DNA from: an uncultured Sterolibacterium sp.
GTDB taxonomy: Bacteria; Pseudomonadota; Gammaproteobacteria; Burkholderiales; Rhodocyclaceae
Reading direction: 5' to 3'
Assembly (NCBI GenBank): GCA_903904605.1
Contig: CAIVDC010000017.1
Coordinates: 51,521 to 115,520 of the forward strand
Length of the DNA stretch: 64,000 bases
Below the pieces are notes generated by a model. It saw only the letters and a program-made list of their open reading frames with translations. It searched no databases and had not been told where the DNA came from. Shown one piece after another: positions 4,538 through 15,098 of this stretch. Position 1 is the first letter of the stretch. Each line of letters begins with the position of its first letter. The position numbers and the translations under genes are program-made.

Positions 4538-5277
4538 TGTCCCGGATCCTGACGGTAAAACAGCCGCAATTGCTCGTATACGTCCGGATACTGATCGTGG
4601 AGCAGACTGGGGTTCTCGAAGAAGGCCTCGCTCATGACCGCGAAGAACTCGGCCGGCGATTCCGCGCCATAGGGGTCGAGCACCGTCTCCTCCCGGCTAT
4701 CGACGCACGCGCGGAAGTCCTCGAAGGCGGCCGCGAAGGCGCCGATCCACAGGCGCCGCGACATGCCCGGATGCAGCGGCGGCAGACCGTCGGCCGGGCC
4801 GCTTTTCATGTCGAGCTTGTGGGCGAATTCGTGGATGACGATGTTGATCCCGCCGGCCTCGTCGGCTTCGTCGAACCAGGACAGCAGGACCGGTCCTCCT
4901 TCCCAGGCTTCTCCCAGCACCGTGTCGTCGTACTCATGGACGAAGCCGGCGTCGTCCATGACCTGTCGGGGAATCACGAAGTCGCCGGGATAAACGACGA
5001 TGCCGAGCCAGCCGCGGTACCAGTCGAGACCGAGCTTGAGCACCGGCAGGCAGGCCTGCAGGGCGATGGAAAGCTGGACGGCCTCGGTCAGGACCAGACC
5101 CCGGGCGCCATGCCATTCCTTTTCAGCGATCAACTCCAGGGCCAGTTGGCGCAACCGCACCCGCTCCTCCGGAGCAAGATGGCCGAGAAAGGGCAGGCCG
5201 GACTCGACCTGCCGCCAGCGCTCCTGTGCAATCCTGACCGCGGGGCCGCGCCAGCGTCTGAACAGGCCGCGGATCAT
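4534..5277 (-). CDS. mtfA: Zinc-dependent peptidase, MtfA (M90) family
   Basis: MIRGLFRRWRGPAVRIAQERW...; HEFAHKLDMKSG zinc motif; ends VMSEAFFENPSLL..YPDVYEQLRLFYRQDP. Start overlaps upstream stop (ATGA). Confidence 0.92.
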   Translation of the reverse strand: MIRGLFRRWRGPAVRIAQERWRQVESGLPFLGHLAPEERVRLRQLALELIAEKEWHGARGLVLTEAVQLSIALQACLPVLKLGLDWYRGWLGIVVYPGDFVIPRQVMDDAGFVHEYDDTVLGEAWEGGPVLLSWFDEADEAGGINIVIHEFAHKLDMKSGPADGLPPLHPGMSRRLWIGAFAAAFEDFRACVDSREETVLDPYGAESPAEFFAVMSEAFFENPSLLHDQYPDVYEQLRLFYRQDPGH

Positions 5278-6203
5278 GGCATCCCGGGGTGCCAGCGGCG
5301 CGAAGTGGTGAGATAGACGCCCGAGAGTATCAGCAGGATGCCGACCAGATGGTACAGGCCGGGCCTCTCCCCGAGAAACATGATCGACAGCAGGGTGCCG
5401 AATGCCGGCATCAGATTCATGAACAGGCCGGCCTTGTTGCTGCCGACCTCCGCGACCGCCCGGTTCCAGAAGATGAAACCCAGCAGCGCCGGGAACAGGC
5501 CGGCATAGGCGATGGCCGAGTAGGCGGCCAGGCTCGGTTTGATGGTCTGGCCGCCGGCGATTTCCCACGCGTAAAAGGGCGCCAGACCGAGGATGCCGGC
5601 TGCGCAGATGGCGGCGAGAAAGGCCAGCGGGTGCAGCCCTTCGGGCCGCCGGGCGAGCAGCACGGTGTACAGTGCCCAACTGAACATGGCGGCCAGCACC
5701 CAGAGATCGCCGGGGTTGGGGCGCAACTCGATGAGCAGCGACGGCTCGCCGTGGGACACGATGGCGAGCACGCCGAAGAGCGAGATCACGACCCCGAGCC
5801 ACTCGCCGAGACGCAGCCCCTTGCCGAGCAGGGCCCAGGAGAGTGCGATGATCATGATCGGCGTGGCGGAAGCGAGGAGCGCGCCGTTGGTTGCCGTGGT
5901 CAGGGACAGGCCGGTGTAGGTGAGGGCATTGTGGCAGGCGCCGCCGCACAAGCCGAGCAGCGTCAGTATCCGCCAATGCCTGGCCAGGTCCCGCCACTGC
6001 GAGCGGACATGGGGCCAGGCCCAGGGCAGCAGGCAGATCAAGGCGATCATCCAGCGCCAGAAGCTCAGGGCGATCGGGGGCACCTCGCCGCGGATGCCGC
6101 GTCCGACGACCCAGTTGCCAGACCAGAACAGGACTGTGAGCAGGAGAAGGATGTAGGCCAGGGCGTGGCCCTGCAGTTTGGGCGAGTCTTCTTCTTTGCG
6201 CAT
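5274..6203 (-). CDS. EamA/DMT family transporter
   Basis: About 10 hydrophobic segments, two EamA repeats (FWSGNWVVGRGIRGEVPPIALSFWRW...; LGERPGLYHLVGILLILSGVYL). Confidence 0.9.
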   Translation of the reverse strand: MRKEEDSPKLQGHALAYILLLLTVLFWSGNWVVGRGIRGEVPPIALSFWRWMIALICLLPWAWPHVRSQWRDLARHWRILTLLGLCGGACHNALTYTGLSLTTATNGALLASATPIMIIALSWALLGKGLRLGEWLGVVISLFGVLAIVSHGEPSLLIELRPNPGDLWVLAAMFSWALYTVLLARRPEGLHPLAFLAAICAAGILGLAPFYAWEIAGGQTIKPSLAAYSAIAYAGLFPALLGFIFWNRAVAEVGSNKAGLFMNLMPAFGTLLSIMFLGERPGLYHLVGILLILSGVYLTTSRRWHPGMP

Positions 6204-6266: not shown

Positions 6267-7301
6267 TCAGGCCGCGCTCTCCGGCACCACCTCGGGGTAG
6301 TAACACATGTGACCCGTCGCGCAATGTTCGGGACTGTTGCGCAGGCCGCGCGCGAATTCCCCGACCGCTGCGCTGTCCTCGCCGGCCAGTGCCCGGTCCA
6401 GGGTCTGCCGGACCATGCCCAAGCTGGCCAGCTTGCGCGCAGTGGCGCCTTCGCGGCCGGCGATCTTGATCGCCGCGATGCCCGCGCTTAACAGGGCCGG
6501 GATGGCGCACAGCCCGCAAGGCCCCCAGGGCAGTCCCTGGGGCGTCAGCGAGAAGCCGTTGGAGAAGCGGTACCACAGCCATTTCTTGTAGGCCACCTCG
6601 TTCTCCTGCAAGCGGCGTTCTTCATCGCCGTTCAAGGCGCGGCCGTCTCGCCGGTAGTAGCGGGTTTCATAATTGTCGAGGCAGATCGGGCCGCCCAGCT
6701 TGCCCGGCAGATGGATGGTGTGGCAGACGCCTTCCTCGAAGACGCAGCCGTCGTTCTGCATGAACACCTCGAATTCGATTTCCGGCGTCGCCTTGGCCAT
6801 GGCCGTCGCTTCGGCAATGCTGACGTCGCGCGGCAGGATGATGCGCCTGACGCCGAGGTCCAGGTAGAAGCGGGCCGCCTCGCTGTTGCGGCAGGATGCG
6901 ACGGAACTCAGGTGCAGGCGGTAGCCGGGCAGGGCTTCGACCAGGGCCATGATCAGGCCGATGTCGCCGACGATCAGCGCATCGCCGCCGAGGTCGCGGA
7001 AACGCCGGGCGATGTCCGCCAGGGCGACGATCTGCTGCGCGGTGTAGTGCTGGGCATTGAGCACCAGCGACATCCTGCCGCCCCCTTCGTGCGCCAGGCG
7101 CACTGCGGTGCCCAGGTCCTCGTAGCTTTCCAGGTTGCCGAAGATGCGCCGGTTGGCGTTGGCGGTCTTGAAGTTATCCACCCATAGCCGCGGCAGGATG
7201 CCGCAGTAGAACTCGCTGGCGCCTGCGGCGGCGAGCGGCTCGACTTCGGCGACGCGGCTGACCGGCGTGACGATGTTCACGAGCGGCCCCTCATTGACCA
7301 T
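6267..7301 (-). CDS. U32 family (UbiU-like) protein at the end of the qhp operon
   Basis: U32-type TIM barrel; Cys186, Cys193, Cys207 and Cys262/265 (NDGCVFEEGVCHTIHLPGKLGGPIC...GPCGLC) resemble the UbiU [4Fe-4S] cysteine set; IKIAGR resembles the U32 LKIEGR motif. Overlaps the upstream gene by 11 nt. Confidence 0.82.
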   Translation of the reverse strand: MVNEGPLVNIVTPVSRVAEVEPLAAAGASEFYCGILPRLWVDNFKTANANRRIFGNLESYEDLGTAVRLAHEGGGRMSLVLNAQHYTAQQIVALADIARRFRDLGGDALIVGDIGLIMALVEALPGYRLHLSSVASCRNSEAARFYLDLGVRRIILPRDVSIAEATAMAKATPEIEFEVFMQNDGCVFEEGVCHTIHLPGKLGGPICLDNYETRYYRRDGRALNGDEERRLQENEVAYKKWLWYRFSNGFSLTPQGLPWGPCGLCAIPALLSAGIAAIKIAGREGATARKLASLGMVRQTLDRALAGEDSAAVGEFARGLRNSPEHCATGHMCYYPEVVPESAA

Positions 7302-8157
7302 TCACCACGATGCGCGTGAGCCAGCCCTGCGCCACCGCTTCCGCGGCAGAGGCCGACATGGCGCGGCTGTGACGGTAGAACAGGGTGTTGCCGCGCTGGC
7401 TGGTCGGAAGGTCGGCCGCCTTGCCCGGCCGCTCGATGGTCGCGGCGTAGCTCAGGCATTCGCGCTGGCATTCCCGGCCCGGTGCGTAACGCTGGGTCGG
7501 TGCCACGGACAGCGAGCCGATCTTGCACAGCCGGCCCTTGGTGACATAGGCGTAGGGCGCGTGCAAGGCGGCGCTGATGCCGAGGCCGCAGAATACCTGC
7601 GGCCGGGCGTAGGGCGGCAGATCGAGTTCGATGCGGGCGATGGCCAGCTTGTCGAGCAGGGCGCGGAAGGAGCGCCCGCCGAGGCCGTGCGGATAGAGAT
7701 CGGCCCAGACGGCGTTGTCCAGGCGCGGGTCCTTGATCATCTTGCACAGCAGCCGTCCGGCGGCCAGATGCAGATGAGGAAATTCGCGCCGGGCGAAGCT
7801 GGCCACACCCCAGTCATTGACGATCAGTTCGGCTCCTTCCGGCAGCAGCGGAAGGATCTCGCGCAGCCGGTCGATGACCCCGTCGCAGGCGATCGGCGTT
7901 TGCAGGCTGAGGCGGCAGCCGGCCTCCTCGACCAGACGCAGCGCGCGTTCGAGAACCGTCGCGACGGGCAGCAGGAACTCGCAAAATTCGCTGCCGAAAT
8001 AATAGTGCTGCGGCGCGATGCCGGCGAGCAGGGCGGCGAGTGGATCGTCCTCGCCGAGCACCTCCTGCCAGGGCGTCGAGCGGCCCGCCGGGGCTTCTAC
8101 CCAGCGTTTCAGGTCGGCATAGCTGTCCACCGCGACGGCGGCCTCCAATCCGTTCAT
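7291..8157 (-). CDS. U32 family (UbiV-like) protein in the qhp operon
   Basis: YYFGSEFCEF (Cys59) resembles the UbiV N-terminal Cys motif; Cys211, then CX3C (GRECQREC, Cys230/234), resembles the UbiV cluster ligands. Start overlaps the qhpE stop by 4 nt. Confidence 0.78.
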   Translation of the reverse strand: MNGLEAAVAVDSYADLKRWVEAPAGRSTPWQEVLGEDDPLAALLAGIAPQHYYFGSEFCEFLLPVATVLERALRLVEEAGCRLSLQTPIACDGVIDRLREILPLLPEGAELIVNDWGVASFARREFPHLHLAAGRLLCKMIKDPRLDNAVWADLYPHGLGGRSFRALLDKLAIARIELDLPPYARPQVFCGLGISAALHAPYAYVTKGRLCKIGSLSVAPTQRYAPGRECQRECLSYAATIERPGKAADLPTSQRGNTLFYRHSRAMSASAAEAVAQGWLTRIVVNGQ

Positions 8158-8843
8158 GCGCGCCGCCGTTCCGGTCCGTGGTAGCGGGCCTCTGCCCTGA
8201 GCTTCACCGGCACGGCATTCGCCGCCATACCCTGGCAGAGCAGTCGACTGACCCGCGCGGAGAGGCGTGCCGCCGCGAAGCTTGCGCCGCTGGCGCTCGC
8301 ATCGCCGGGAACCGCGCAGGGATGGGCGCCGAAATCGGCGTTGGCGCCGCCCAGCCAGGAAATCTCCGTCTCGGCGCAGCGGGCGTCGCCGCTCACCGCA
8401 ATGCATTGTGGGTAGGCGGCGGGAAACACCGGTGCGCCGCGCGCCGGCGCCGAAGCCACGAGGATGACGCCGGCAGCCGCGGCGCGCTCGCAGGCCAGGC
8501 GCAAGCCGGCATCGGCGCGGCGCACGCCGAGGCTGATATTGATCAAGGCGGCGCCGTCATCGACCAGCCAATTGATGGCGGCAGCGACCTGCGCCGGCGA
8601 ACTGGTCCGCGTTCCGGCAAAGACCTGGGCCGAGAGCAGGCCGATGTCGCCGCCCAGCTCCTTGATCAGGCGGGCGATTTGCGAGCCGTGTCCCAGCCGG
8701 TCGTCGCCGCTTTCAGTGCAGCGGATGCCGCCGTCGTCGCCGGCGGCGAAGCTGCGCGCCGCGACGACGCCCGGCAGGCCGAGGGCGCCGCCGCTGTCGA
8801 CGATGCCGACGAGAAGAGTGCTGCCGACGGCGGCGCCGTTCAT
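8154..8843 (-). CDS. qhpE: Subtilisin-like S8 serine protease, QhpE-type (leader peptidase for the QHNDH gamma subunit)
   Basis: Triad motifs VGIVDSGG, RLGHGSQIA, ASGASFAAAR; position next to the ABC exporter and QHNDH genes. Confidence 0.85.
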   Translation of the reverse strand: MNGAAVGSTLLVGIVDSGGALGLPGVVAARSFAAGDDGGIRCTESGDDRLGHGSQIARLIKELGGDIGLLSAQVFAGTRTSSPAQVAAAINWLVDDGAALINISLGVRRADAGLRLACERAAAAGVILVASAPARGAPVFPAAYPQCIAVSGDARCAETEISWLGGANADFGAHPCAVPGDASASGASFAAARLSARVSRLLCQGMAANAVPVKLRAEARYHGPERRRA

Positions 8844-10567
8844 TGCGGCCGGATCGACAACCGAGCGTCGGCGAGCGCCACGATCAGGTCGAATTGCGCG
8901 GTCGGCAGCGGGCGGTGGCTGACCACGATGCGTGTGCGTTCAGCGAAGTGTTCGTCGATGGCCGCCCGGATATCCGCGTCCATATCGGCGTCCAGGCCCG
9001 AGGTGCTCTCGTCGAGGATCAGCACGCGCGGCTGCATGAGCAATGCCCGCGCCAGGGCGATGCGCTGGCGCTGGCCGCCGGACCGCGCCGCGCCGCGCTG
9101 GCCGACCTCGGTGTCGAGCCCCTGCGGCAGCTGCGCCGCGAACAGGTCCACGCGCGCCAGCCGCGCAGCCGCCTGCACCTCGTCCAGACTGGCCTGGGGG
9201 CGCCCGTAGCGGATATTGTCGACGATGCTGGCGGAGAAGAGGAGCACATCCTGGGCGACAACCACCACGGCGCGGCGCAGTTCGGCGCTGTCGAGCCGGC
9301 ACAGGTCCACGCCGTCCACCAGGATGCGGCCTTGCTGCGGGTCGTAGTGCCGTTGCAGGAGGTCGGCCAGGGTGCTCTTGCCGGCGCCGGACTCCCCTTG
9401 GAGGAGCAGCTTCTTGCCTGCCGGGATGAGCAGGTCGGCGCCGTCGAGCACCATCGTCCCGTCGGGGTAGGCGAAGCTGACGCCGCGCAGTTCGATCCGC
9501 CCGCGTCCCTCGGCCGGCAGTGAAAGCGGCTGTGCCGGCGCCGTCACGGCGGTCCGCATCGTCGCCAGTTCGGCGACGCGATCGAGGCTGACGCGGGCGC
9601 GCTGCAGGGCGACGTACATGCCAAGCAGCGACTGGATGGTGCCGTTGGCCCGAGTCACGTAGCTGGCGAAGGCGATCAGCCCGCCCAGGGTCAGCGGCGC
9701 GTGACCGCGCAGGGATTGCGTGCCGAAGACGAAGATGCCGACGGTGCCCAGGGAAAGCAGAAAGCCGGGCAGTGCCCCGGCGGCGTAGCCGACCAGCTGC
9801 AGGCGCAGCGTATCCCGGCGCAGTTCGCGGTGCAGGCCGTTGAGCACCTCGCCTTCGCGCAGCTGGCCATTGTAGGACTGCACGCTCTTGGCCGCCCCCA
9901 GCACTTCGACCAGAAAGGCGGCTATGTTGGCGCCTCGTTCGCGCGCGCTGCGGCTGAGACGCTCGATGCGGGGCCGCAGGGTCCTGAGGAAGAAAGCGTT
10001 GATGATCAGGAGCAGCAGCATGATGCCGGTGAGCGGTGGGCTGAGCTGGTAGAGGATGAACAGGGAGCCCGCCAGGAGCACGCTGCTGTTGGTTGCCGAG
10101 AGCAGGAGGTCGAGGGCGAAGCGCTGTATTTCCGCAATGTCGCTGTCCAGCCTGACCATCAGGTCGCCCTGGCGGGTACGCGCGAAGAACTCCGGCGACA
10201 GCGTCAGGAGATGGGCGAACAGCGATTCGCGCAGGCTGTGCAGGATGCGCGCGGAGGTGTCGACATAGAGCAGCCGGGTGGTGGCGCCGAGGAACAGTGC
10301 AGCTATCGCCAATGCCACCATGAGGCCGGCCACGCGCAGAATGACCTGATCATTTCCGGCGAGCAGGCCTTCGTCGATCAGCTGCTTGGTCAGGTAGGGC
10401 TGGGCCAGACCGGCGCCGACCGCGGCCAGCGACAACGCCATGACCAGAGCCAGCCTGGGCAGGGCGGGGCGCAGGAAACGGGCGAACCAGTGCAAGGTTT
10501 CGCGACGTTGCGTGGCGGTGGCGCTGTCGCGGGAAGCCGCCTGCCACGGCGCCACGTAAGACTGCAT
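8840..10567 (-). CDS. qhpF: ABC transporter (fused TM-NBD), QhpF-type exporter
   Basis: Six-TM region then Walker A GESGAGKST, signature RSGGQRQR, Walker B VLILDES; qhp operon context. Confidence 0.88.
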   Translation of the reverse strand: MQSYVAPWQAASRDSATATQRRETLHWFARFLRPALPRLALVMALSLAAVGAGLAQPYLTKQLIDEGLLAGNDQVILRVAGLMVALAIAALFLGATTRLLYVDTSARILHSLRESLFAHLLTLSPEFFARTRQGDLMVRLDSDIAEIQRFALDLLLSATNSSVLLAGSLFILYQLSPPLTGIMLLLLIINAFFLRTLRPRIERLSRSARERGANIAAFLVEVLGAAKSVQSYNGQLREGEVLNGLHRELRRDTLRLQLVGYAAGALPGFLLSLGTVGIFVFGTQSLRGHAPLTLGGLIAFASYVTRANGTIQSLLGMYVALQRARVSLDRVAELATMRTAVTAPAQPLSLPAEGRGRIELRGVSFAYPDGTMVLDGADLLIPAGKKLLLQGESGAGKSTLADLLQRHYDPQQGRILVDGVDLCRLDSAELRRAVVVVAQDVLLFSASIVDNIRYGRPQASLDEVQAAARLARVDLFAAQLPQGLDTEVGQRGAARSGGQRQRIALARALLMQPRVLILDESTSGLDADMDADIRAAIDEHFAERTRIVVSHRPLPTAQFDLIVALADARLSIRPQ

Positions 10568-10574
10568 CCGGCCC

Positions 10575-11705
10575 TCAGTGGCTGAAGTAGCGCATCGACG
10601 CCGTCGCCTGATCGGCGTCGCCGGGCATGCGTATGGTCTGCAATTTTTGCAGCGTCACGGCGTCGTAGAAGGCGACCAGCGGGCCGGCGCCGCCCAGATA
10701 GAGTTCCTTGCCGTCGCGCGAGACGTTCACGTTGTAGAAGGTCTGATCGAGGTCGACGCGCTTCAGCAGCTTGCCCTTCCGGGTGTCTATGCGCGAGAGC
10801 GTCGCATAGACCGTATAGACCTCGTTGCGGCGCACCGGGTTGACCGTGGAGGAGAACAGCACGACCGAAGTGTTCTCGAATTCCTTGTAGGCGATCTTGT
10901 CGGTCGCCAGGTCCAGCGTGTAGATGCCGGACTTCATGGCATCGGGCGCCTCCGGCTTGCGGTCCGTTCGCGCCACCACGTAGGGGAAGGAAAGGACTTT
11001 CGAGGCATCCCAGAGCGGCCAGACGGCGAGCGCGTCGGGCTCGCCCAGGTTCTTGCGGTTCCAGTGCCGGATCGGGTGCGTGCCTATGACCTTGCCGGTT
11101 TTCGGGTCCATGACCACGACGTCCCAGCTCATGGCGTAGAGCCGGCTGCCGTCGGTCGAGTAGGCGAGCAGCGTGGTCCGGCGCGGTGCCGGGAAGGTGC
11201 GCAAGGGCTTGGCGCCGATGCCGGCGGCGGCATCATAGACGGCGATATAGGTGTCCTGCACCTGGTATTCGCCGGCCAGAATCTTGACCGGGTCGATGTA
11301 GATGGACAGCTCCTTGCCATCGGGGCTGACGTCGAAGGCGAAGGTGGACTTGCCGCGTATGCCCGGCGAGGACAGTTCCGCGCGGAACACTTCCTTGCCG
11401 GTATCGACGTCGATGCCGGAAACGGTCTCCCAGTGGTTGTGCAGGATGTACACCGTCTTGCCGTCGGGCGACACGACCAGCGTGCCCGGCGTGTTGCCGG
11501 GGCGCGAGTTGGGCAGGGGATAGACCTTGTCAACCTTGCGCGCGGCAACGTCGATGAAGACCAGCTTGTTGGAGTGCAGGGCGGTAACCAGATAATCCTT
11601 GGCGTTGGCGCTGCCTGCCGCCGCGGCGCCGCAGGCGGCCAGAGCGGCGAAGAGGGTCTGCCGCAGGATCTGCCGAAAAAAAGCGGCGCTGAATATTGCT
11701 TTCAT
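10575..11705 (-). CDS. qhpB: Quinohemoprotein amine dehydrogenase beta subunit (beta-propeller)
   Basis: Signal peptide MKAIFSAAFFRQILRQTLFAALAACGAAAAGSANA then YVTN/beta-propeller repeats (DYLVTALHSNKLVFIDVAARKVDKVYPLPNSRPGNTPGTLVVSPDGK). Alternative start at 11729. Confidence 0.9.
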   Translation of the reverse strand: MKAIFSAAFFRQILRQTLFAALAACGAAAAGSANAKDYLVTALHSNKLVFIDVAARKVDKVYPLPNSRPGNTPGTLVVSPDGKTVYILHNHWETVSGIDVDTGKEVFRAELSSPGIRGKSTFAFDVSPDGKELSIYIDPVKILAGEYQVQDTYIAVYDAAAGIGAKPLRTFPAPRRTTLLAYSTDGSRLYAMSWDVVVMDPKTGKVIGTHPIRHWNRKNLGEPDALAVWPLWDASKVLSFPYVVARTDRKPEAPDAMKSGIYTLDLATDKIAYKEFENTSVVLFSSTVNPVRRNEVYTVYATLSRIDTRKGKLLKRVDLDQTFYNVNVSRDGKELYLGGAGPLVAFYDAVTLQKLQTIRMPGDADQATASMRYFSH

Positions 11706-11728: not shown

Positions 11729-12046
11729 TCACTTCGGGAACACGGCCTGAAGGGCGCGCCAGTCGCGTGCCGCGCTGTCGTTGCCGACACTCCAGTCGGT
11801 ATAGGTGTTGAGCGTGTCGGGAACCTGCACCGGCCACCAGCAGGGATCGGCGCAGCCATAGAGGTCTGCCTCCATCGGCTGGCAGAGGCCGGCGACGCCG
11901 CCGAAGGCATCGACTTCCCAACCTGGGTCGAAGACCGTCGTGCAGCCGACGGCGGCCGCCATCGTCACGACCTCGTCGCCGGCGCGCGCCGCCGGCGACT
12001 GGATCAGCAAAGCGGCCTTCTTGTTCAATGGTTTCATGTGGTTCAT
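11729..12046 (-). CDS. qhpC: Quinohemoprotein amine dehydrogenase gamma subunit precursor (CTQ and thioether cross-linked)
   Basis: 105 aa; [50 protein letters not shown] carries all Cys/Asp/Glu/Trp cross-link positions of known QHNDH gamma subunits; 28-residue leader before the core. Confidence 0.95.
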
Positions 12047-13491
12047 TGCGGGCCTCTCCTGGAACCGATGTGTTGCGTGAAAAAGGCGGGGTTCTTGTCC
12101 TGCAGTTCGACGTAGCCGGCCAGGCCGAAGTCCAGCCACTCGCGCATCAGTTCGCAGTAGTGGTGGGTGGGCGCCAGCGGGTCGCCGTAGCGCGTGTAGG
12201 ACTCGTGGTAGCAACCTCCGGCGCAGAGGTTGCGGATGCGGCAACTGCCGCAGCCGGCCGGCAAGTCGGCTGCGGCGGTCAGGAAGTCGTCCAAACGCTC
12301 ACGGTCGACGCCGTCCGTGACATTGCCGAAGGCGGGCAGGGCGGAACCGGCGAAGCGGTGGCAGAGGTTCAGGCTGCCCTGGTCGTCGAGCGCCAGGAGG
12401 CCGACGCCGGCGCCGCAGGGCAGGACTTTCCGGCTGCCGGCATAGAGCTCCGCGAGCATCTGGTGCATGTTGGCGAAGCCGATGTTGTGGCCGGCGACGG
12501 CGGCATCGAGGTAGAGCCGCCCCAGCGCCTTGAAGCCTTCGAACACCTCGGCCAGTTCGGCCGGGGAGAGGTTGGCCTGATGGTTCTGGCTGGTGGTCAC
12601 CGGCGCGAAACCGATTTCGAAGAAGCCCAGTTCGTCTCTCAAGTGGCTGTGGATGGCGAGCACGTCGCTGCCGCCGGCCGAAAGCGTGACGCGCGCGCCC
12701 ACCGGACGCGAGCGGTAACGCGAGAGCAGGAGCTTCGCTTTGGCCGCCACCAGGTCGTAGCTGCCCCGGCCCCCCCGGGTTTTCCTCCGGCGATCGTGGA
12801 CCTCCCTGGGACCGTCGATGCTGATCGAGAGGCCGAAGCAATGCTGATCGAGAAAGTCGATGATCTCCTCGTTGAGCAAGGTGGCGTTGGTGGTGAGCGT
12901 GAAGTTGGGCCGCTTGCCCGCAGCCGCGCACCGTTCTTCCGCGTAAGCCACGACGCTGCGTATCAGCGGCAGGTTGGTCAGCGGCTCGCCGCCCAGGAAT
13001 GCCAGGTTGATCCCGGTGCGGGCGGCGCTTTCTGAAATCAGCAGGTCGACGCCGCGGCGGGCGGTGTCGGCATCCATTTTCCGGGCGCGAGCAGGGGCCG
13101 TCAGGTCCTCCTTGTAGCAATAGCCGCAAGCCAGATTGCAGCCGCTGCTGACGCTGAGAACCAGGGTGTTGAGGGCATGATCGGCGAATCTGATCGTCGG
13201 GGCCGTCGCCGCCCCCGGCAGACTCTCCCTCAGTATGGCCAGGCTGCGCAGGTCGTCCACGGTCTCCGCGACCTGTGCCGGCGACAGACTTCCTTCCGGG
13301 CGGGCCGAAATCCACTCGCGCATGTCGGCCGCGGTGATGCAGGGGCGTGTCTTGAGAAAATCCAGCACTTCCTCGCCGACGCTGTCCAGTTCGAACAGGG
13401 CGCTGGTCGGCAAATGGAACAGCACCCGACGTCCGCCGAGGCTGACGTCGTGGAAACTGTCGGAATCGAGATAGAGCGCGCCATTGGCCAC
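12043..13491 (-). CDS. qhpD: Radical SAM/SPASM peptide-modifying enzyme QhpD
   Basis: [14 protein letters not shown] (CX3CX2C); SPASM cysteines [14 protein letters not shown]...YC; N-terminal PqqD-like region; overlaps qhpC start by 4 nt. Confidence 0.94.
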
Positions 13492-13505: not shown

Positions 13506-15098
13506 TCAGCGCAGCGGCGGATCGACCCAGCGCTGCACCGTGACGATCAAGGGCGCTGCGGCCTTGATCCGGCGCTTGCCGTCCGCGACTGCCGCCGTCA
13601 CCGTCAGGTCGCCGGTGTTGTTGGTGCCGAACTTGCGCTTGGGGTTGGGGCCGGCCGCAGCTGGCACGAACAGTCCGGACGGCTCAAGCCTGCCGGCGAA
13701 GCTGGCGTCCCGGTAGGTCCTGGCGTTGGCATTGGCGTTGGCAAAACTCCATTGCGCCGGAAACACGCCGATGCGCTGCAAGGTCTTGCCGCCCTTGCCG
13801 CCGATATAGCCGACGGCCTCGAACTGCGCCGGTTGCGTCGCCAGCGCGCCGCCGTTGTCGCCGATCCGCGCCAGACCGCGATCCGGTTCCAGGCGAAGGC
13901 TGTCGATGCGCCGATACACGGTGAGCAGATCTCCTGCCGCCGTCTCGCCGACCTTCACCGTGCGCTGGCCCACTGCTGCATTGGCGCCGGGCCGCGCTTC
14001 GACCACCACGGTTTCGGCAGAGCGGCGAAGTTCGCGCAGCACGCGCACCCCCTGGCCCAGATCGACCGGGCCCGTGAGGCCGGTGCCGTGGATTTCGAGT
14101 TGCTGCGCAACGCCGGCCTTGAGGTATTCCGGGTTGACCGCGAGAACGGCCGGCGTGCCTGCCAACCGGGTGGCGGCGAGATCGCCGCCCAAAGTGTCGA
14201 CATCGCGCAGATACCAGCGCCCCTGCAGGTGGCTGCCATCCTCGGAGAGGGTGAATACCTGGCGCACGTCCTGGTCGCCTTGCCGGAGACTGGCGCGCCA
14301 TTCATAACCGGTATAGAGGATGGCGCGTCCGGAAGCCTTCTCGCTCCTGCCATCGGCGTAGCGCAGTTCCATCGTCATGGTGTACTCGTCGGCGGCGGTC
14401 TCAGTGATCGTCGCCACGCCCTCGTAGTCGCCCCAGCCCGGACGGTGACCGACCACGCGCCAATTGCCGCCGGGTTTGACCCAGGTCTGCGCCTGCCATC
14501 TCGCCCAGGCTGGGCTGTCCAGCGGATAGAGCTTGGCGAGGAGGGGCGGCACCTGCCGGGACGCGATTTCCCACCAGTTCCGGTCCCGGCCGTTGCTCTG
14601 GATCTCGATGCTCGGGTACTGGCCGACGTGAAAGTTGGACAGGCGCAGCCAGTCTGCCTCGCTCCGCCTCTGCAGGGCGATCCGGGCGTAACTGTGGCAG
14701 CGCGCGCAGGTATCGCCGACCAGTTGATTCTCGAAATGCTCGGCGCCGCCGGGTCGGCGTTCCGGCAGGTAGCGCCAGGGCAGGGCCTCCGACGGCGCCA
14801 GGCCGTACGCGTCGGAAAGAACCTTGACCAGCGTCCGCCGCGTCCCGTCGTCCAGCTGCACCTTGTGGATCAGGCTCATCCGCCCGACGGTCATTTCCCA
14901 GCCTTCGGGGCTGCGCCTGGCTTCGGCGATGCGCTCCAGGCTGCCGTCGGCGCGCGCCTCGTGGCAACCGGCGCATTTGGCCTGCAGCAAGGCTGCTCCG
15001 GCAGGGCTGAGTGCGGCCACGGCGGGTGTCGCGGCGAGCGCGCCCAGTGTCATCAGGGCCAACAGCCGCCAGCTTGCGGCAAACGATGCCATGCTCAT
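13506..15098 (-). CDS. qhpA: Quinohemoprotein amine dehydrogenase alpha subunit (diheme cytochrome c)
   Basis: Signal peptide; two heme motifs CAGCH and CARCH; large Ig/beta domains as in QHNDH alpha; operon context. Confidence 0.93.
   Translation of the reverse strand: MSMASFAASWRLLALMTLGALAATPAVAALSPAGAALLQAKCAGCHEARADGSLERIAEARRSPEGWEMTVGRMSLIHKVQLDDGTRRTLVKVLSDAYGLAPSEALPWRYLPERRPGGAEHFENQLVGDTCARCHSYARIALQRRSEADWLRLSNFHVGQYPSIEIQSNGRDRNWWEIASRQVPPLLAKLYPLDSPAWARWQAQTWVKPGGNWRVVGHRPGWGDYEGVATITETAADEYTMTMELRYADGRSEKASGRAILYTGYEWRASLRQGDQDVRQVFTLSEDGSHLQGRWYLRDVDTLGGDLAATRLAGTPAVLAVNPEYLKAGVAQQLEIHGTGLTGPVDLGQGVRVLRELRRSAETVVVEARPGANAAVGQRTVKVGETAAGDLLTVYRRIDSLRLEPDRGLARIGDNGGALATQPAQFEAVGYIGGKGGKTLQRIGVFPAQWSFANANANARTYRDASFAGRLEPSGLFVPAAAGPNPKRKFGTNNTGDLTVTAAVADGKRRIKAAAPLIVTVQRWVDPPLR

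Follow-up and report, generated by a model that had tools for sequence, protein, structure and literature searches.

Genes of the qhp cluster

The window, a stretch of 64,000 nucleotides from an uncultured Sterolibacterium sp. (assembly GCA_903904605.1, contig CAIVDC010000017.1), carries a complete qhp (QHNDH) cluster in which qhpA, B, C, D, E and F were all found, and the eight genes qhpA-D-C-B-F-E-U32a-U32b all lie on its minus strand. The alpha subunit is encoded by qhpA (13506-15098; TIGR03908, 647 bits, cut-off 274), followed by qhpD for the radical SAM thioether-forming maturase (12043-13491; TIGR03906, 656 bits, cut-off 453), qhpC for the gamma-subunit precursor with its 28-residue leader (11729-12046; PF08992, E 1.7e-42) and qhpB for the beta subunit (10575-11705; TIGR03907, 446 bits). 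Next come qhpF (8840-10567), an ABC transporter by its Pfam matches (PF00664, PF00005) and, from its operon position, the proposed gamma-subunit exporter, and qhpE (8154-8843), which encodes the subtilisin-like leader peptidase (NF049966, 235 bits, cut-off 165). Curated NCBIfam cut-offs are passed by qhpA, B, C, D and E. The CTQ residues of QhpC are Cys65 (11852-11854) and Trp71 (11834-11836), equivalent to Cys37 and Trp43 of the mature chain; QhpC gives a gap-free alignment with the 1jju and 1jmx gamma chains, and the CTQ Cys and Trp are conserved in the QhpC of 67 relatives, being retained also in genomes that have the U32 pair only.

The cluster ends with two genes that we call U32a (7291-8157; 288 aa, UbiV-like by its cysteine pattern, a weak UbiV profile match and its fold) and U32b (6267-7301; 344 aa, a UbiU-like U32 protein). 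The first-pass annotation had placed a U32 pair directly after qhpE, with overlaps of 4 nt and 11 nt, and this arrangement is confirmed: qhpE and U32a share the 4 nt ATGA, with the U32a start at 8157, and U32a and U32b share 11 nt provided that U32b starts at the ATG at 7301. Of 30 loci in which qhpE precedes the pair in the same orientation, 16 have a qhpE-U32a gap of -4 nt and 21 a gap within 5 nt. Because the same overlap recurs across loci, we conclude that the arrangement is not due to chance.

An EamA-type transporter gene (5274-6203, minus strand) begins ~60 nt past U32b and may be co-transcribed. Two Thauera MAGs (L133, L137) show a different layout, in which the U32 pair adjoins qhpE and qhpF and no structural qhp gene lies in the fetched stretch, as if the maturation genes moved as a unit.

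Sequence and fold of U32a and U32b

U32b is a member of the U32 family, scoring 139 bits against Peptidase_U32 (PF01136, E 1.9e-40, cut-off 22.4), but it reaches only 89.5 bits against the ubiquinone UbiU model NF047963, for which the curated cut-off is 440; comparison of the U32b profile with the UbiU profile gave E 2e-32. The protein contains the motif E178-x7-C186-x6-C193 together with C207, C262 and C265. Residues C186, C193, C207, C262, C265 and C333 are invariant in 80 of 80 U32b relatives, and E178 is kept in 78 of these. The spacing of E178, C186 and C193 equals that of E162, C170 and C177 in TrhP. When aligned on the cluster-ligand positions reported for UbiU and UbiV (PMC6747719), C186, C193 and C207 coincide with UbiU ligands C169, C176 and C193, and the candidate fourth cluster ligand, C262 or C265, is out of alignment with UbiU C232. 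Searching the PDB by sequence with E. coli UbiU, with U32b and with a U32b profile returned no match and no UbiU or UbiV structure.

U32a has no Pfam or NCBIfam match, and its profile matched that of UbiV weakly (E 2e-4, vs 0.013 for UbiU). Its cysteines C59, C211, C230 and C234 (CXnCX18CX3C) are invariant in 75 of 75 relatives; C59, C230 and C234 align with the UbiV cluster ligands C39, C193 and C197, while C211 is offset by three residues from C180, and the spacing is CX18CX3C vs the UbiV-type CXnCX12CX3C. The AF2 models of U32a (pLDDT 87.5, TIM-like fold) and U32b (pLDDT 87.1) both resemble TIM barrels, and both match the U32 structure 5d88 (Mk0906) along with many other barrels; the top TM-score for U32a among the matches listed was to 5d88 (TM 0.47). 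The weak profile match, the cysteine spacing and the modelled fold weakly suggest that U32a is kin to UbiV. The first gene of the pair is the UbiV-like one, which is a correction to the first-pass annotation.

In a tree, 25 qhp-linked U32b and 16 UbiU proteins fell on separate branches, with a support of 77 for the qhp group alone, near the base of which three distant pairs attach, and of 100 for the qhp group plus these three pairs vs UbiU. The qhp-linked proteins do not lie within true UbiU, and the association of the pair with qhp genes recurs in other genomes; none of the refuting outcomes named at first pass that sequence comparison could address was observed. The three distant pairs (31-35% identity to U32b; L181:1081-7665, L182:7577-12132 and L183:6373-11041) occur outside qhp clusters; one, in a Dehalococcoidia MAG, adjoins three FAD_binding_4 proteins and an ETF gene, and another, in a deltaproteobacterial MAG, adjoins a lipoyl ligase and a radical SAM protein. 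These distant pairs possibly serve further O2-independent oxidations.

Co-occurrence of the pair with QhpD

Among 151 genomes of the same family, QhpD was present in 21 and an orthologue of U32b, 53-69% identical to the window's own protein, in 14, all of which were within the 21. When 84,980 species genomes were scanned for two conserved peptides of U32b, 64 loci emerged; 61 are orthologues (48-82%) and come from Alpha-, Beta- and Gammaproteobacteria. QhpD scored over the cut-off in 47 of 50 scan genomes. The three QhpD-negative assemblies measure 2.4-2.9 Mb and carry a MAG label, and their matches sit on short contigs. In every one of the 16 family copies U32a comes before U32b, as it does at 59 of 61 scan loci; contig ends truncate the remaining two. 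An order-wide QhpD survey placed the window's own genome alone above the cut-off.

The genome also has a separate, ordinary ubiT/ubiV/ubiU set at another locus (true UbiU at G000:C65), a set that the first-pass annotation had proposed looking for. True UbiU exceeded its curated cut-off in 35 of 36 pair genomes tested, vs 9 of 17 QhpG-only genomes, a distribution that fits an anaerobic role for the pair.

Distribution of the pair relative to QhpG

We searched for qhpG with queries validated on 7ctq and NF049967, which neither U32 protein matches. Profile search of the window's genome, an assembly 87% complete, revealed no qhpG, in line with the replacement of QhpG suggested at first pass; given this completeness, we argue the absence from complete relatives as well, such as the one-contig genome G379, which has QhpD and the pair and likewise lacks QhpG.

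The 21 QhpD genomes of the family divided into 11 with the pair only, 7 with QhpG only, 3 with both and 0 with neither, and the divergent QhpG copies of the family pass the curated cut-off. A phylum-wide draw added 10 QhpD genomes, 10/10 with QhpG and 0/10 with the pair; one of these (G790) is divergent, its QhpD lying below the curated cut-off and its QhpG match being weaker. Taken together, these surveys, which were not selected on presence of the pair, comprise 31 QhpD genomes: 11 with the pair only, 17 with QhpG only, 3 with both and 0 with neither (Fisher p = 4e-6, the genomes counted not being independent events). On a QhpD tree, presence of the pair changes ~3 times, which provides only 2-3 independent contrasts, all of them opposite in QhpG.

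The first-pass expectation of either QhpG or the pair, rarely both, is borne out as far as the two are largely complementary and never both missing from the unselected surveys. It overstates the case in its second half: both occur in 3 of 14 pair-bearing survey genomes and in 19 of 50 scan genomes, the remaining 31 of the 50 being without QhpG. Exclusivity is therefore partial, and we reject a strict mutual exclusivity. The survey and scan counts together imply that the pair takes the place of QhpG in the majority of genomes and complements QhpG elsewhere.

The two states can be seen within one genus. Sedimenticola hydrogenitrophicus has the pair and QhpG in one cluster, whereas the genome of S. 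selenatireducens contains the pair but lacks QhpG. The congeners at L168 and L171 have closely similar qhp clusters, one with qhpG between qhpE and the pair and the other without qhpG anywhere in its genome, and so lend themselves to comparison. A suspected QhpG fusion, a 1033-aa open frame at L101 and L111, was discarded: the frame reads through, free of stop codons, ahead of a normal QhpG. On a Novosphingobium plasmid (L038), a divergent qhp-like cluster (QhpD 38%) has only a marginal QhpG-like match (24 bits), and the stretch contains no U32 pair.

Proposed role in CTQ formation

Since the pair is found nearly only in QhpD genomes, and mostly where QhpG is missing, it probably builds the quinone cofactor without oxygen. 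On comparative grounds we consider it highly probable that the pair is an O2-independent hydroxylase of the CTQ-precursor Trp, dedicated to QHNDH maturation and doing the job of QhpG without O2.

Physiology, which the first-pass annotation leaves aside, provides a reason for such an enzyme. To go by the title of the study, two QHNDHs reportedly initiate the anaerobic degradation of aromatic amines in Aromatoleum aromaticum EbN1, and its authors reportedly emphasised that O2 is not required for CTQ maturation in this organism. This strain (G343) has two qhp loci, with the pair at both and QhpG at one. As the oxygens introduced by QhpG come from O2 and QHNDH is reportedly used anaerobically, an O2-independent alternative is needed, for which the pair is the obvious candidate. 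The only explanation given so far for CTQ formation is an O2-consuming enzyme, although QHNDH is reported to serve a denitrifier in the absence of O2; the pair offers candidate genes for the missing O2-independent step.

The chemistry can be sketched by analogy. QhpG dihydroxylates the Trp with oxygens from O2, not water, and works in the cytoplasm in complex with QhpC and QhpD (PMC7876137). UbiUV hydroxylates aromatic rings independently of O2, in air as well (PMC10470549), anaerobic ubiquinone synthesis is reported to take its hydroxyl groups from prephenate (PMC11574389), and TrhP needs prephenate, with motif residues E162, C170 and C177 singled out (PMC6599085). It is from the QhpG complex, the UbiUV chemistry, the prephenate reports and the TrhP motif at identical spacing that we propose Trp hydroxylation by the pair, and we infer catalysis at the Trp, the two hydroxylations, the donor and complex formation. 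U32a and U32b would be a UbiU/UbiV-like pair of [4Fe-4S] proteins that hydroxylates Trp43 of mature QhpC numbering without O2, with prephenate as the likely oxygen source, as in known U32 hydroxylases. By analogy with QhpG, the site of action would be the cytoplasm and the substrate thioether-cross-linked QhpC bound to QhpD, and this step would precede cleavage by QhpE and export by QhpF, with the final oxidation to the quinone taking place afterwards. That a heterodimeric two-cluster U32 enzyme places both oxygens on the peptidyl Trp, with prephenate as donor and within a QhpC-QhpD complex, is a model that we favor with moderate confidence.

An unlikely alternative, and the best surviving one, is that the pair aids maturation in some other way, as a peptidase, a chaperone, an electron donor to QhpD or QhpG, or a repair system. 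The family name, peptidase U32, and the coexistence of the pair with QhpG in some genomes would be explained by such a function; however, QhpE is retained beside the pair, QhpG-only genomes manage without it, those characterised U32 proteins that carry these cysteines serve in hydroxylations (PMC11574389), and the complementarity with QhpG fits replacement of the step that QhpG performs. It is very improbable that the substrate hydroxylated by the pair is instead a small molecule of amine catabolism, such as an amine or aldehyde, within the same regulon: the pair does share an operon with a catabolic dehydrogenase, and UbiUV hydroxylates a small aromatic ring, but the pair tracks the maturation genes, adjoining qhpE and qhpF in L133 and L137 where structural qhp genes are lacking, and it tracks the absence of QhpG. 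Least probable of all is a second UbiU/UbiV set for ubiquinone, placed in a qhp operon by chance. UbiU is the closest named family by profile and UbiU and UbiV are likewise paired genes, yet the low UbiU score of U32b, the true ubiT/ubiV/ubiU set elsewhere in the same genome, the near-universal true UbiU of pair genomes, the clade of its own and the restriction essentially to QhpD genomes all stand against it; a chance U32 paralogue is rejected on the same evidence of a true UbiU elsewhere and a separate clade.

Hydroxylation of the CTQ-precursor Trp by the pair would add a protein residue to the lipids and RNA on which U32 hydroxylases act. To our knowledge, no U32 enzyme has been described that has a protein as its substrate. 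NCBIfam (June 2026) has models for QhpG and QhpE and none that recognises the U32 pair, and a search of 5.39 million open papers, among which most subscription papers are not included, found none joining QHNDH or tryptophylquinone with U32. As a soluble protein substrate, QhpC would allow a change of +32 Da to be detected by mass spectrometry, which would help with the poorly understood U32 chemistry.

Comparison with known systems

The closest counterpart is UbiU-UbiV of E. coli, which the qhp pair resembles in its two adjacent genes, in its TIM-barrel-like predicted folds and in its cluster-type cysteines, with the UbiV motif up to spacing and three of the four UbiU ligands. In contrast to UbiU-UbiV, the qhp pair has a reversed gene order, a distant sequence and a separate clade; it lies inside qhp operons, with the true ubiUV encoded separately, and its predicted substrate is a protein side chain. 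With QhpG (NF049967, PDB 7ctq) it shares the predicted step, in which the CTQ Trp of cross-linked QhpC is hydroxylated, and a location near qhpE and qhpF, whereas fold and chemistry are unrelated, QhpG being an FAD monooxygenase that takes two oxygens from O2. The E-x7-C-x6-C motif of the U32 domain is common to U32b and TrhP, but TrhP and RlhA, which carry out prephenate-dependent RNA hydroxylation, are single proteins that act on RNA, and U32b is only distantly related to them. MauG, LodB and GoxB also make tryptophylquinone from a peptidyl Trp, but these heme or flavin enzymes start from a Trp that is already monohydroxylated and introduce the second oxygen (PMC7876137). QhpG and the pair would also parallel UbiIHF and UbiUV, or TrhO and TrhP, in which O2-dependent and O2-independent enzymes exist for one step.
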